This document shows positions 55,986 through 61,690 of a DNA stretch of 64,000 bases, piece after piece. The notes beneath the pieces were generated by a model. That model worked only from the letters and a program-made list of their open reading frames with translations. It was not told the DNA's origin and did no database searches. Position numbers and translations under genes: made by a program. The stretch comes from Hufsiella arboris. GTDB lineage: Bacteria; Bacteroidota; Bacteroidia; Sphingobacteriales; Sphingobacteriaceae. Location: NCBI RefSeq assembly GCF_009834875.1, contig NZ_WVHT01000010.1:1-64000 (forward strand), read 5' to 3'. Every line of letters starts with the position of its first letter. Positions within the stretch are counted from its first letter, which is position 1.

Positions 55986-56987
<1,002 letters not shown>

Positions 56988-57836
56988 TTAATTTTTATTG
57001 ATGTAATAATTTAAAACGTTGTTAATAGGTGCTTTTAATACCGTTGAAACCTGAAGTCCATGCTTTTGCGCGGTGTCCTTCAGCAGATTTTCAAAAGTAA
57101 AAGCTACTGTTCCTGCAAAATGTATTTTTTCGCCCGGGTGCTTTTCACTTAATGGAACAATACATTTGTTCAGAAAAGAGTTAAAGCCCTCTGTGACAAT
57201 CTGTCTTACATACTTATTGTCTTTGTTATCTCTCAGGAAGCCTGAAAAAGAGCTCAAAAATAACACAGGCTGAGGATTTCGGTACACTTTTTCTAAAATT
57301 TGCTTGCGGTCAAGCCCATATTTTTGATGAAATTTCTCCCGGAAGTCCATTGGCATGGTTTGAGTCAGAAAATTCTTAAGCAATTTACGTCCTAACCAGT
57401 TCGACGAACCCTCATCACTAAGCACAAAACCCAGGCCGTAGTTGTTTTTTTCTATCTTTTTTCCGTCATAATATGCAGCATTTGAGCCACTGCCGATAAT
57501 GCCTACAATGCCGGTAGTGTCTCCGCAAGTTGCCAGCGCAGCGGCTTTCAGGTCATGCTGAATGCTCACTTTGGCGTTTCTGAAAAACGTTTTTAACGCA
57601 TTGGCGATTACCTGTCTGCGCTCTTTGGATGATGCGCCTGCACCAAAAAAATAGATTCTTTTGATACGCTCTGCATGTGTTATCAGCTCGTTGGTTTTAT
57701 TCATTAAACTGATAATTAGCTGCTCGTTGTCGAAATAAGGATTAATGCCAACTGTTCTGAATTCAGAAACAAGCTTGCCTCTGTCAGCCAGTTCCCAGGT
57801 TGCATATCTAGATCCGCTATAAACAACCGCTATCAT
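56988..57836 (-). CDS. BadF/GlcNAc-kinase-like protein with lost phosphate-1 motif (probable pseudokinase)
   Basis: A 282-residue ASKHA-fold protein. It aligns without gaps over the first 150 residues with the BadF-family protein at 60689. There residues 6-13 read DGGSTKTN; here they read YSGSRYAT, so the Asp, the Thr and the Lys of the phosphate-1 loop are gone. Kept are HD (94-95, where the catalytic Asp is expected), the phosphate-2 loop GIIGSGSN (112-119) and DEGSS. Normal ATP-dependent sugar phosphorylation is therefore doubtful, and sugar or nucleotide sensing is possible. Its ATG overlaps the pfkA stop by one base (TGATG) and gapA follows 6 bp later, so it is embedded in a glycolytic operon. 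Confidence 0.85.
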   Translation of the reverse strand: MIAVVYSGSRYATWELADRGKLVSEFRTVGINPYFDNEQLIISLMNKTNELITHAERIKRIYFFGAGASSKERRQVIANALKTFFRNAKVSIQHDLKAAALATCGDTTGIVGIIGSGSNAAYYDGKKIEKNNYGLGFVLSDEGSSNWLGRKLLKNFLTQTMPMDFREKFHQKYGLDRKQILEKVYRNPQPVLFLSSFSGFLRDNKDNKYVRQIVTEGFNSFLNKCIVPLSEKHPGEKIHFAGTVAFTFENLLKDTAQKHGLQVSTVLKAPINNVLNYYINKN

Positions 57837-58822
57837 CAAATAGTAAGCACATGTGACATTTCAAGCAGGTCTTCTTCCAGCTTGAATTCACTGTGATTAA
57901 TAGCAATTTCGAGGTTTGTTAATACGATTTCGTTGCCCTTCAGGCCAGTCATTTTCCTGGTTTCACCAACCAGAAGTGCGTTAACAGCCGCGTAGCCCAT
58001 ACGGCTCGCCAGTACTCTGTCAAAACTGGTTGGACTGCCCCCGCGTTGCAGGTGTCCGAGAATGGTTACTTTAATATCAAAGCTGTCGCCTAATTTTTCT
58101 TTAACGTGTTTGGCTACGTTATAAGCGCCGCCGTTCTTATCGCCTTCAGCGATAATAACAATACTGGAAGTTTTATTACAATCAACACCCTGCTCAAGTT
58201 TACCGATCAGGTCGTCGATGCCGGTATCTTTTTCCGGTAGCAATACTGCCTCCGCGCCTCCGGCGATTCCGGCTTGTAAAGCAATACAGCCCGAATCGCG
58301 CCCCATCACTTCAACGAAGAACAGGCGGTCATGCGAAGCCGCCGTATCACGGATTTTATCAATCGCTTCAATTACCGTATTATTCGCGGTATCATAACCG
58401 ATCGTATAATCAGTGCCGGATAGGTCGTTGTCTATCGTTCCTGGTATTCCGATAACCGGAATATTGTATTCTTTTGATAATAGCTCGGCTCCTGTGAATG
58501 TACCGTCGCCGCCAATGGCAACAAGTGCATCGATGCCCTTTTCTTTTAAGTTTTCGTAAGCAAGCTTCCGTCCCTCAGGCGTGCGGAACTCCATACAGCG
58601 CGCGGTTTTTAAAACCGTTCCGCCTTTCTGGATAATATTGCAAACTGAACGGGCACCCATATCAATAAAGTTCTTTTCCATCATGCCTTGGTAACCCTGC
58701 ATGATGCCCACCATTTCCTTGCCCATGTAAATACCGGTACGAACAACGGCCCTTATGGCAGCATTCATTCCCGGAGCGTCGCCCCCCGATGTATAAACTC
58801 CTATTTTTTTTATGGCTGTCAC
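57836..58822 (-). CDS. pfkA: 6-phosphofructokinase
   Basis: A 328-residue ATP-dependent phosphofructokinase, which turns fructose-6-phosphate into fructose-1,6-bisphosphate. Motifs: IGVYTSGGDAPGMNAAIRAVV at the N-terminus (outline), GGDGTFTGAELL (ATP/Mg), PGTIDNDLSGTDYTIGYDTA (catalytic Asp in TIDND), EVMGRDSGCIAL and LGHLQRGGSPTSFDR. Start: the frame is open to an ATG at 58903, but that ATG is upstream of the probable -7 box (58848-58855). The GTG at 58822 (VTAIKKIGVYTSGG) gives the standard family length. It is the first gene of pfkA-BadF-gapA. Confidence 0.94.
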   Translation of the reverse strand: MTAIKKIGVYTSGGDAPGMNAAIRAVVRTGIYMGKEMVGIMQGYQGMMEKNFIDMGARSVCNIIQKGGTVLKTARCMEFRTPEGRKLAYENLKEKGIDALVAIGGDGTFTGAELLSKEYNIPVIGIPGTIDNDLSGTDYTIGYDTANNTVIEAIDKIRDTAASHDRLFFVEVMGRDSGCIALQAGIAGGAEAVLLPEKDTGIDDLIGKLEQGVDCNKTSSIVIIAEGDKNGGAYNVAKHVKEKLGDSFDIKVTILGHLQRGGSPTSFDRVLASRMGYAAVNALLVGETRKMTGLKGNEIVLTNLEIAINHSEFKLEEDLLEMSHVLTI

Positions 58823-58847
58823 GTGTGTTTGAGGTTTATTTAGACTA

Positions 58848-58855
58848 CGAATATA
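58848..58855 (-). promoter_or_regulatory. -7 box of the pfkA operon promoter
   Basis: On the minus strand TATATTCG (TAnnTTTG with one T to C change), 25 bp before the GTG start. No clean -33 TTTG was seen, which would fit a promoter under regulator control. Confidence 0.45.
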
Positions 58856-58857
58856 GT

Positions 58858-58872
58858 GTGTAATTTTTACAC
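58858..58872. promoter_or_regulatory. perfect palindrome, likely operator between pfkA and the Nudix regulator
   Basis: GTGTAA-TTT-TTACAC, a perfect 6+3+6 inverted repeat, lies two bases upstream of the pfkA -7 box in the divergent promoter region. The placement between -7 and -33 is that of a repressor site. Confidence 0.6.
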
Positions 58873-58943
58873 TAAGGGAATATTTTTCAATAATTTTTTC
58901 CAACTATGCCTAATCACTATATTTAACATTTTAAAGAATACTG

Positions 58944-59639
58944 GTGATAGAAGTCCTGCATAAAATAGATTCCGTATTTACGATAGATTGTGTCATTTTC
59001 GGCTTTGATGAGGGTGAACTTAAAATCCTCATGATCGAGAGAAATGAAGAGCCTTATAAGAACTGGTGGGCATTGCCTGGTTACTATGTAGGACAGGACG
59101 AGGGCATTGACCATGCTGCTGAGCGTATTCTTTATGAACTGACAGGCCTGCGAGATATTTATATGGAGCAACTCTACACGTTCGGAGATGTACACCGCCA
59201 CCCTAATGGGCGTGTGATCACGGTGGCTTATTACGCGATGATCCGGCTTAACGGGCAAAAGGACCTGAAGCCCGTTACAAATTACGCACGTAAAGCATTT
59301 TGGGCACCTGTAAATGAATTGCCGGAACTCGCATACGATCACTCCCAGATATTTAAGAAAAGCCTGGAAAAGGTTAGGAGGAAGATCAGCTATCAGCCGA
59401 TTGCTTTTGAACTGCTGCCCGAAAAATTCACGCTTACGCAGTTGCAGCATTTGTATGAAGTGATTTTAAACAAGAAGCTCGATAAACGCAACTTCCGTAA
59501 AAAGATGCTTAACTATGGAATTTTACGGGAGCTCAACGAGAAACAGCGTGGAGTATCATACAGGGCGGCTAAGCTGTATAAATTCGACCGCAAGAAATAT
59601 ATGAAGTTGTTTCAGAAGGAGCTGTCGTTTAGCAGGTAG
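58944..59639 (+). CDS. Nudix-related transcriptional regulator (NrtR/AraR type), degenerate Nudix box
   Basis: A 231-residue two-domain protein. The N-terminal Nudix fold (about 8-140, DCVIFGFDEGELKILMIER, NWWALPGYYV) has an altered Nudix box at 47-69 (...DEGIDHAAERILYELTGL): two catalytic glutamates are Ile62 and Leu66. The C-terminal winged helix (about 150-220, FTLTQLQHLYEVILNKKLD, RNFRKKMLNYGILREL) is of the NrtR kind. Such proteins bind a sugar or nucleotide ligand in the Nudix pocket and control transcription; in Bacteroidetes some regulate sugar use (AraR). It starts with GTG, since stops bar any upstream start. It is transcribed divergently from pfkA, with a palindrome between them, and so probably regulates the pfkA operon. 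Confidence 0.88.
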   Translation: MIEVLHKIDSVFTIDCVIFGFDEGELKILMIERNEEPYKNWWALPGYYVGQDEGIDHAAERILYELTGLRDIYMEQLYTFGDVHRHPNGRVITVAYYAMIRLNGQKDLKPVTNYARKAFWAPVNELPELAYDHSQIFKKSLEKVRRKISYQPIAFELLPEKFTLTQLQHLYEVILNKKLDKRNFRKKMLNYGILRELNEKQRGVSYRAAKLYKFDRKKYMKLFQKELSFSR

Positions 59640-59665
59640 TGTAGTGATCGGATGACCGCTGCTCG

Positions 59666-59777
59666 TCGGGATTTGCAATCCCGATGTAATAACCGCAGAT
59701 TTTTAATCCGCATACAAGATTGATTTTTTATGCGGATTAAAAATCCGCTCTTGAATGTGCCGGGATTACAAATCCCG
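59666..59777. repeat. REP-like hairpin cluster, left of the RAYT pseudogene
   Basis: Four small hairpins with 3-nt loops: 59666-59684 (TCGGGATT-TGC-AATCCCGA), 59695-59711 (one mismatch), 59732-59748 (GCGGATT-AAA-AATCCGC) and 59761-59777 (CGGGATT-ACA-AATCCCG). The second and third also form an AATCCGCAT / ATGCGGATT outer repeat. This paired arrangement is like BIMEs. Confidence 0.75.
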
Positions 59778-59860
59778 ACAAGCATAAATCCCGCAATCAT
59801 CCCCCGACAATATCAGGCATTATCCCGATTTCCGTCTACACATTATCCCGCTAATATCCA

Positions 59861-60408
59861 TTAAACTAAGACTACATCAAGCAATCCCTTACCTTCGGCG
59901 TAATCTATAGCTGAACTGTAGCGATAATGGTGTGGTTTGTCCACGTATTCGGCAGTAACCGGGTTCATATGGATATAGTCGATCTTTTGCTGCAAAATTC
60001 AGGAGTATGAATTTCTTTAGCCTCATTGCCGTCTTGCCAGAATTTATAATCTTTAATTTTTGGATTGTATCGCCCTGCGAACTCAAATTGGTTCAGCATC
60101 CATTTTTTCCGGCTTTCAGTTTCTGTATTTATCTTCTCAATTATTTTTTTGTTTGTAATTTTTTTAAAGTCACGAAGGATATCAGACAACGTAAATTCAT
60201 TGTCTTCTTTTACTCCTGCAATAAAATGCAAATGGTTACTCATTAAACACCATGCGTAAATTTCAAGTCCCTTAATTTGTTGACAATGCTTTAGTGCATC
60301 AACGATTATATGCTTATAAACTGGTCTGGTAAATACATCAACCCAGTCAATAACGGTCAGTGTTAAGAAGTACAAATAGCCTTGGTTGATTTTGTTATTG
60401 ATCCCCAT
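59861..60408 (-). pseudogene. REP-associated tyrosine transposase (RAYT, IS200-like), frameshifted
   Basis: An ATG at 60408 starts a Y1 transposase of the RAYT group: YFLTLTVIDWVDVFTRPVYKHI, the HUH motif in WCLMSNHLHFIAG, and FKKITNKKI...RKKWMLNQFEFAGRYNPKIKDYKFWQDGNEAKEIHTPEF. At 59994-59997 four T's (minus strand) stand where five are needed. The frame then fails at a TGA (59965), but the next frame continues without a stop to 59861 as LQQKIDYIHMNPVTAEYVDK, PHHYRYSSAIDYAEGKG and on, the expected C-terminus. With one T restored the protein is 182 residues, the usual size. It is flanked by REP-like hairpins on both sides, the hallmark of this family. A sequencing error in a homopolymer cannot be excluded. 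Confidence 0.85.
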
Positions 60409-60489
60409 GCTATTAAGATCGGATAAAGTCGATATTTCAAAAAGGTCTTTAAACTTTTGGAAACCCATAAAGGAAGTGCGGTGGACATT

Positions 60490-60606
60490 GCGGATTACAA
60501 ATCCGCTTTTAAATGTGCCAAGATTGCAAATCTCGGCAAGCACAAATATTTACTAGACGCTCATCAGGTTTGTAATCCTGATATAGAAAGCGGATTTTTA
60601 ATCCGC
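60490..60606. repeat. REP-like hairpin cluster, right of the RAYT pseudogene
   Basis: Four hairpins of the same family as on the left: 60490-60506 (GCGGATT-ACA-AATCCGC), 60517-60537 (GCCAAGATT-GCA-AATCTCGGC, one mismatch), 60563-60582 (ATCAGG core, one mismatch) and 60590-60606 (GCGGATT-TTT-AATCCGC). Confidence 0.75.
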
Positions 60607-60633
60607 CCTTATCGCGTCAGCTTAAGCATCCAC

Positions 60634-60672
60634 AAAAAAGCCCTTTCATAATTATCATGAAAGGGCTTTTTT
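60634..60672. terminator. strong bidirectional terminator next to the BadF kinase gene
   Basis: Perfect 16-bp stem AAAAAAGCCCTTTCAT / ATGAAAGGGCTTTTTT with a 7-nt loop. It closes the minus-strand BadF-family gene (stop at 60689). Confidence 0.9.
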
Positions 60673-60688
60673 ACTTTTGATAGTATGT

Positions 60689-61549
60689 TTATTGTTTCGC
60701 CAGGGCTTCGTCAACGTGGAACTGAACCAAGTCGTCGATCGGCGAACGCATGATCTTCCCTATTTGCATGCCATACTCTTCCGCTACCTCCTGTAAAATA
60801 TTGCGGAAGTTATATCCAACAGAACCAATACAGTTAAAAGTATAGCTTTGGTAGTTTGGATAATGACTTACGAGGTTTCTGAAAAAATCTTCAAAAGATG
60901 ATTTTACAACGTTGCGGGTATATTCGATATGAACATTGTTATCATAAGCAAATTTGCTGAAGCTTGCGCAAAAGCGGTTTGCGAGCGGCTGGGTATAAAC
61001 CCGGTCGTTTACTTCATCAGGAGTAAGCTTATATGTTTCCCAGAAATTCTGACGAACAGGCTCAGGCATATAACCACGAAGGTAATCTGTCAGAAGTTTC
61101 TTGCCAATGTAACAGCCGCTTCCTTCATCACCTAAAATGTATGATGCCGAGTCGATATTATGAGCGATATCTTCACCGTCGTAAACGCAGGTATTGGTTC
61201 CGGTTCCTAAGATCGCCGCGAATCCTTTTTCTTTTCCAAGAAGTGCGCGCGCTGCTGCAAGTAAGTCGTGGCTTACGAAAACTTTGCTGGCTGGGAAGAT
61301 TACTTTCAGTGCCTTTTCAATGATATGAGCTTTCTCCTCATTGTGAACGCCGGCGCCGTAAAAGTTTACTTCTGTTACTTTTGACGATTCGATATCCTGT
61401 GGCAGGTTTTTTCTTAACGAATCGATGATGTATTCGGTACTAACGAAAAAGGGATTATAGCCTTCTGTGTTGAAGTAATCTTTTTGTCCGTTATCATTTA
61501 GCAGGCACCAGTTAGTTTTGGTTGAGCCGCCATCAGCAATGAGGATCAT
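60689..61549 (-). CDS. BadF/BadG/BcrA/BcrD family ATPase, N-acetylglucosamine-kinase-like
   Basis: A 286-residue ASKHA-fold protein with an intact active site: phosphate-1 loop ADGGSTKTNWC (5-15), HD (94-95, catalytic Asp candidate), phosphate-2 AILGTGTNT (112-120) and LGDEGSGCYIGKKLL. The family includes GlcNAc/glucosamine kinases and the ATPases that activate benzoyl-CoA reductase. The absence of CxxC Fe-S motifs and the short length favour an amino-sugar kinase. It is the intact paralogue of the degenerate protein at 56988. It is a single-gene unit with its own promoter and terminator. Confidence 0.85.
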   Translation of the reverse strand: MILIADGGSTKTNWCLLNDNGQKDYFNTEGYNPFFVSTEYIIDSLRKNLPQDIESSKVTEVNFYGAGVHNEEKAHIIEKALKVIFPASKVFVSHDLLAAARALLGKEKGFAAILGTGTNTCVYDGEDIAHNIDSASYILGDEGSGCYIGKKLLTDYLRGYMPEPVRQNFWETYKLTPDEVNDRVYTQPLANRFCASFSKFAYDNNVHIEYTRNVVKSSFEDFFRNLVSHYPNYQSYTFNCIGSVGYNFRNILQEVAEEYGMQIGKIMRSPIDDLVQFHVDEALAKQ

Positions 61550-61564
61550 ATCTAAAAATTTTTG

Positions 61565-61595
61565 CGAAGGTAAAAATTAAAGCTAATTGTACAAA
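61565..61595 (-). promoter_or_regulatory. promoter of the BadF-family kinase gene
   Basis: On the minus strand TTTG (61592-61595), a 19-bp spacer, then TACCTTCG (61565-61572, one change from TAnnTTTG). The ATG is 15 bp downstream of the -7 box. Confidence 0.55.
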
Positions 61596-61690
61596 TAACA
61601 CTAAGTAATATAAGTCAAAAATGTTACGGTTAATTGGTGCCGTGTTATTTATAATTGTAAAGCTAAAATTATTTCTGAAAACTTTATAAA

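Follow-up and report, generated by a model that had tools for sequence, protein, structure and literature searches.

A gene for a Nudix-fold protein lies divergent from a glycolytic operon in Hufsiella arboris, and the question raised by this locus is which genes such a protein controls and what signal it senses. The window, i.e. the whole stretch of DNA that was analysed, covers 64,000 nucleotides of contig NZ_WVHT01000010.1. A preliminary description of the gene had proposed a dead Nudix hydrolase that serves as a ligand sensor and acts as a local switch for the adjacent pfkA-BadF-gapA genes. The genes of the locus are listed below.

58944..59639, plus strand: regulator gene, GTG start, 231 aa; Nudix-fold effector domain at aa ~11-148 and winged-helix DNA-binding domain at aa ~150-215
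57836..58823, minus strand: pfkA, ATP-dependent 6-phosphofructokinase (TIGR02482; conserved start GTG 58823)
56988..57839, minus strand: BadF-fold sugar kinase 1 (MurK/NagK-like), in the pfkA operon (profile and PDB matches)
55986..56981, minus strand: gapA, type I glyceraldehyde-3-phosphate dehydrogenase, third gene of the putative target operon (TIGR01534)
60689..61549, minus strand: BadF-fold sugar kinase 2 (NagK-like), conserved neighbour (synteny; operators in many Pedobacter)

The start of the regulator at 58944 was accepted because this GTG is the sole in-frame start and because GTG, TTG or ATG recurs at or near the same position in most relatives. In most genera the start codon was seemingly GTG or TTG (58944, L005-L029) and seldom ATG, and such starts may keep translation of the regulator weak. 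Profile searches placed a NUDIX domain (PF00293) at residues 14-136 with an E value of 2.5e-11 and NrtR_WHD (PF21906) at residues 154-214 with an E value of 1e-28, which confirmed the winged helix that had been described after the Nudix domain. This order of domains, both above the gathering cut-offs, and the agreement of the fold over the whole chain assign the protein to the NrtR/AraR superfamily. The AlphaFold model (mean pLDDT 86.5) had its top PDB match in AraR with L-arabinose (5deq; Z 24.8, 2.7 A, 211 residues), with full-length SoNrtR ranking behind, and the closest solved relative by sequence was BtAraR (5bs6, E 2.4e-58). The source genome belongs to the Sphingobacteriaceae group, and its nearest named relative was Pedobacter sp. 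BS3, whose regulator is 82% identical. In NCBIfam, the top match was the ADPR-responsive NtrR model with 161.7 bits against a cut-off of 400 bits; the name TransRepNtr was dropped since the score is so far under this cut-off.

Two segments of the protein bear on its function.

59079..59150, plus strand: inactivated Nudix box, residues 46-69 (sequence; substitutions conserved in 34/34 clade members)
59481..59510, plus strand: recognition helix D180-L189, DKRNFRKKML (alignment; contacts from PMC4666351)

The box reads G46-YYVGQD-E53-GIDHAAE-R61-I62-L63-Y64-E65-L66-T67-G68-L69. As had been noted earlier, it retains E53, R61, E65 and G68, and the glutamates at box positions 16 and 20 are replaced by I62 and L66. 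The box glycine G1 is also lost (Y47), so that the intact signature of an active hydrolase (GX5EX7REUXEEXGU) is broken in the window protein at G1, E16 and E20. Position 62 was isoleucine in all 34 members of the clade of pfkA-linked orthologues and position 66 was L, H, F, M or N in every one of them, supporting the proposal of a dead hydrolase as a probable sensor. Both E16 and E20 were retained in all 12 relatives of the NAD type, which come from Bacteroidota, Planctomycetes, Verrucomicrobia, Cyanobacteria and others, and a residue other than glycine at G1 (Y, N, F, D or H) was confined to the pfkA-linked clade and the sister group from Saprospiraceae. AraR proteins lack two or three of the glutamates of the box (PMC4666351). 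Since BtAraR is without both E16 and E20 whereas the NAD-type relatives keep both, their loss marks the sugar-sensing branch including AraR and, judging from these sequences, the dead box is not special by itself. The earlier label of an NrtR-type design thus stood with regard to the domain architecture, but the comparison with NrtR was imprecise, as the box is intact in the nearest NrtRs of the NAD type. In the recognition helix, K181, R182, N183 and K186 align with the AraR base contacts K179, R180, N181 and K184 (PMC4666351).

Phylogenetic comparison with NrtR and AraR, a check suggested in the preliminary description, set the regulator apart from both. In a tree with the very long branch of SoNrtR as its root, with two AraR rows that were also long and with XylR left out, the pfkA-linked proteins formed one clade with support of 100/100 and the AraR rows fell outside it. 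The sister of this clade was a Saprospiraceae group (95/82), followed by AraR, and the whole sugar branch was split from the NAD-type NrtRs (99/97). A second family member, an araR paralogue, was found in the same genome at the araB-araD-araA locus; this separate paralogue sits with the arabinose genes while the regulator is linked to pfkA. The neighbours of the regulator and the operator targets found by the scans described below are glycolytic and differ from the context of NrtR sensu stricto. By sequence and gene context, the regulator is neither NrtR sensu stricto nor AraR and represents a clade of its own in the sugar-sensing branch.

AraR (BT0354 of Bacteroides thetaiotaomicron; 5bs6, 5deq, 5ddg) was the best match in both sequence and fold. 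The two proteins have in common the dead positions 16 and 20, the base-contacting residues, the GTGT-N7-ACAC operator core and three sugar-hydroxyl ligands. However, the regulator belongs to another clade, its predicted targets are those of central glycolysis and not arabinose genes, and its pocket differs from that of AraR at F36 (E35), at G48 (Y, N or F47) and at F49, which is variable in the regulator clade. NrtR of Shewanella oneidensis (3gz5/3gz6/3gz8) has the same domain architecture and fold, but the regulator lacks the ADP-ribose phosphate contacts and the NAD-gene context and is on a separate branch. XylR (BT0791, Bacteroides) belongs to the sugar-responsive branch that the NrtR family has in Bacteroidetes (PMC3878776, PMC4666351). 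It regulates a xylose operon, whereas the context of the regulator is glycolysis, and the two were set apart by this context. The proposed mode of control resembles that of CggR (Bacillus), Cra/FruR (enterobacteria) and HexR (proteobacteria), each of which presides over several central glycolytic genes; these proteins are of unrelated families (SorC, LacI, RpiR) and their effectors are sugar phosphates or keto-acid phosphates. As a separate observation, operator-like CTTAGTGTACTTTTTACACCACA was found beside a nicotinate phosphoribosyltransferase-like ORF upstream of an NAD-type NrtR (L289, ~2254), which suggests that members of the NrtR family share the GTGT-N7-ACAC code. A perfect TTTAGTGTAAATTTTACACTAAA palindrome was found upstream of the gene of a Bacteroidales NAD-type NrtR (L284, ~3876).

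The region between the regulator and pfkA contained a candidate binding site and two candidate promoter elements.

58854..58876, no strand: putative operator, 23 bp, core GTGTAATTTTTACAC at 58858-58872 (sequence, conservation in relatives)
58848..58855, minus strand: putative pfkA -7 element TATATTCG, TAnnTTTG-like (TATATT.GT invariant in the 8-genus alignment; presumed function)
58918..58925, plus strand: putative -7 element TATATTTA of the regulator's own promoter (recurs in the intergenic regions of relatives; presumed function)

The start of pfkA is very likely GTG 58823, which is conserved in relatives, and not TTG 58903 of the ORF; with the start moved, the site is located upstream of pfkA and not within its ORF. 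Positions 58858-58872 form an exact GTGTA-N5-TACAC palindrome, the single exact match within the window, but on its own this match proves little since the chance mean in the window is 0.85 with one mismatch permitted. Comparative footprinting of the pfkA upstream region, also suggested earlier, was more informative. In an alignment with a mean identity of 52%, TAGTGTA..A.TACAC..TATATT.GT was nearly invariant across 8 genera. The intergenic regions of relatives have in common CTTAGTGTA-N5-TACAC-NN-TATATTCGT, the form in the window is CTTAGTGTA-N5-TACAC-NN-TATATTCG, and the surrounding upstream sequence has diverged. With up to two mismatches this composite motif occurred about once per genome, and 25 of its 29 matches in 60 genomes were pfkA promoters. 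Variant palindromes were found at other places in the same intergenic region in genera g4 and g7 (L030-L033). A chance palindrome was ruled out by the conserved footprint and by recurrence at several genes, and the 58858-58872 site looks like a genuine operator. It abuts the putative -7 box and lies ~32 bp upstream of the corrected pfkA start. The promoter boxes were assigned by consensus only. An E. coli-type promoter scan is uninformative for Bacteroidota. TATATTTA forms an inverted repeat with the pfkA -7 box.

Members of the family were present in 42 of the 60 genomes, mostly in the same family as H. arboris. Among 30 orthologue loci, the regulator was divergent from pfkA in 27, divergent from gapA in two and displaced in one (G001). 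In a set of named genomes partly the same as the 60, 40 of 43 orthologue loci were divergent from pfkA; the genera included Pedobacter, Mucilaginibacter, Sphingobacterium, Parapedobacter, Olivibacter, Arcticibacter and Albibacterium. This synteny, together with the conserved footprint, supports the earlier suggestion that the pfkA-BadF-gapA genes are the probable target through the 58858-58872 site. In two genomes of 1.7-1.8 Mb (G005 and G029), the regulator was directly divergent from gapA and pfkA was absent at the locus, and in G029 the composite motif was found upstream of pyk. These streamlined genomes, in which the regulator adjoins gapA (L018 and L013), belong to the same family as H. 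arboris.

Breaks in the linkage were also found. In G001 the regulator was ~53 kb from pfkA, and the operator was still at pfkA. The regulator has been lost in G022, where the pfkA operator had 2 mismatches but was recognisable and the eno and pyk regions scored under the threshold given below. In the Saprospiraceae sister group, an operator was located ~33 bp ahead of a BadF kinase-pfkA operon (L338) and another ~30 bp ahead of a BadF kinase (L343); as the regulator is unlinked there, the link between operator and target is independent of adjacency to the regulator.

On the other side of the regulator, 59650-60680 contained a REP-associated transposase ORF (Y1/IS200-like, PF01797) with REP-type palindromes GCGGATTAAAAATCCGC. 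It separates the regulator from the second BadF kinase; both genes are near each other in most relatives. The two BadF-fold kinases in and beside the glycolytic locus are paralogous, with NagK and a putative MurNAc kinase as PDB relatives, and the pfkA operon may include an amino-sugar or hexose kinase.

The idea of a local switch proved too narrow. The same operator was found elsewhere in the genome ahead of pyk, eno and fba, indicating a glycolysis regulon. The sites of the H. arboris genome had 0 mismatches at pfkA, 1 each at pyk and eno and 2 at fba (class II aldolase), and those of pyk, eno and fba ended 39-52 bp ahead of the start codon. A search of this genome with TAGTGTAN5TACACNNTA and up to two mismatches gave 19 matches, which do not exceed the 23 of the reversed control, so the match list alone proves nothing. 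An NrdJ-like gene (L036) and a transketolase gene (L041) were rejected as targets, their sites having 1-2 mismatches, lying ~140 bp from the start and being probable chance matches.

Stronger evidence came from the relatives. A matrix trained on 24 pfkA sites only was run over the 300 bp ahead of the eno, pyk and fba genes, and the threshold, 12, was picked once the scores were seen; for shuffled sequence (600 trials) the 99% level was 9.3 and the highest score 14.9. The eno operator was detected in 15 of 20 genomes with the orthologue and 0 of 10 without (Fisher p 2e-4), and the pyk operator in 16 of 20 and 1 of 10 (Fisher p 4e-4), contrasts that are confounded with kinship because the genomes without the orthologue are mostly from other families, G022 being the sole clean loss within the family. 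Among the genomes that carry the orthologue, some 20-25% of the eno and pyk promoters were without a strong site (e.g. eno in G020 and pyk in G019), and a pyk site was present in G010 though a close orthologue is missing. By the same matrix, the fba operator was found in 3 of 19 genomes; a pgk operator was found only in G006 and G011, and tpiA had a strong site in none of the scanned genomes. Strong operators also preceded the second BadF kinase in many Pedobacter, and in the window one weak candidate was found at this gene.

61583..61605, minus strand: weak candidate operator CTTAGTGTTATTTGTACAATTAG upstream of kinase 2 (score 8.6, just under the shuffled 99% level)

An unbiased scan of 14 genomes with RGTGTAN5TACACY yielded 48 sites, of which 21 were upstream of pfkA, eno, pyk or fba; the reversed control gave 17. 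No target clearly recurred among the remaining 27 (galK, GH3, MFS transporters and others), most of which may be chance matches. Among the operator-like palindromes were those preceding galactokinase, a GH3 glycosidase and AraJ-like MFS transporters (L192 of G001, L199 of G002, L188, L194), which are possibly AraR or lineage-specific targets.

The reading that we favour, with a probability of roughly 0.8, is that the protein is a homodimeric repressor of glycolysis from the sugar branch of the NrtR family. Its winged helix would bind CTTAGTGTA-N5-TACACTAAG operators situated within the core promoter or immediately downstream of it, at pfkA-BadF-gapA, pyk and eno and, depending on the lineage, also at the second BadF kinase, fba and pgk. 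The Nudix domain, catalytically dead, would bind a small sugar-type signal of carbohydrate availability. By analogy with AraR, the ligand would rotate the winged helices and DNA would be released, and glycolysis would be de-repressed when sugar is present. The comparisons speak directly for the architecture of the protein, the conservation of the operator, the membership of the regulon and the identity of the clade; binding to DNA, repression, dimerisation, the nature of the effector and the direction in which it acts are predictions.

The signal was considered from the pocket. The AraR ligands R34, R86 and H131 correspond to R33, R85 and H133 here and are invariant, but they are not diagnostic alone, being invariant in the NAD-type relatives as well. 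The ADP-ribose phosphate contacts of SoNrtR, N43, K76 and R98 (roles from PMC4666351), are replaced by E35, L66 and N88 and in the clade mostly by E, L and Q, and the arginine of R98 is retained in all 12 NAD-type relatives. With the sugar-hydroxyl ligands kept and the phosphate contacts absent, a small sugar or amino sugar is likelier than ADP-ribose, and a sugar-type inducer is our best guess. Since both BadF kinases match NagK and MurNAc kinase structures, the inducer to consider first would reasonably be a hexose or an N-acetyl-hexosamine.

A tentative but serious alternative keeps the same regulon and makes the effector a phosphorylated intermediate (fructose-1,6-bisphosphate or a hexose phosphate), the protein being a flux sensor like CggR. 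The predicted targets, central glycolysis and not the catabolic operon of one sugar, point in this direction. CggR and Cra sense fructose phosphates, which also fits a flux sensor. However, the pocket retains the sugar-hydroxyl ligands of AraR, and the acidic residue 35, E in 28 of the 34 clade members where SoNrtR has a phosphate-contacting Asn, disfavours phosphate, although this is not decisive.

It is unlikely that the protein activates the glycolysis genes. The positions of the operators suggest repression: the eno operators are downstream of a TATATTTG-like -7 box and the pfkA operators abut or overlap the -7 box, as would suit steric repression.

An NAD- or ADP-ribose-responsive NrtR whose regulon drifted to NAD(H)-consuming glycolysis, with gapA as the redox link, is very unlikely. 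It would agree with membership of the same family, with gapA as an NAD-dependent target and with the distant NCBIfam match, but the replaced phosphate contacts and the grouping with AraR away from the NAD-type NrtRs argue against it. The glycolytic targets, the missing phosphate contacts and the separate araR are likewise consistent with the earlier claim of a probable role outside NAD or arabinose control. That the AraR paralogue occupies the operator, the glycolytic sites then serving arabinose control and the window protein having another role, is highly improbable, for although the recognition helix and the spacing of the half-sites are the same in AraR and the window protein and the genome does carry araR at the arabinose locus, strong pfkA, eno and pyk sites occur in G016 and G021 with the pfkA-linked orthologue as the only family member, so that the sites do not require AraR, and they follow the orthologue and its synteny, not araR.

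Within the reading of a sugar-responsive repressor, we lean slightly towards a fuller account, in which a sugar-sensing Nudix-fold master repressor of PFK, GAPDH, enolase, pyruvate kinase and NagK/MurK-type kinases would have arisen in the AraR-type branch before the Sphingobacteriaceae/Saprospiraceae split and acquired a new ligand specificity.

To our knowledge, no regulator dedicated to core glycolysis has been described in Bacteroidota; neither such a regulator nor a glycolysis regulator of the NrtR family was found in openly licensed papers. The comparisons provide a candidate protein and an operator sequence, a list of targets in ~20 genus-level groups, and residues of the pocket that can be tested. 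The protein appears to be an NrtR-family regulator of the sugar branch whose target set, core glycolysis, is new. If this is true, glycolysis would join NAD, arabinose and xylose among the known roles of the NrtR family, and the regulator would illustrate the re-tuning of a dead Nudix domain. It would also bear on how polysaccharide-degrading bacteria match glycolysis to sugar supply.
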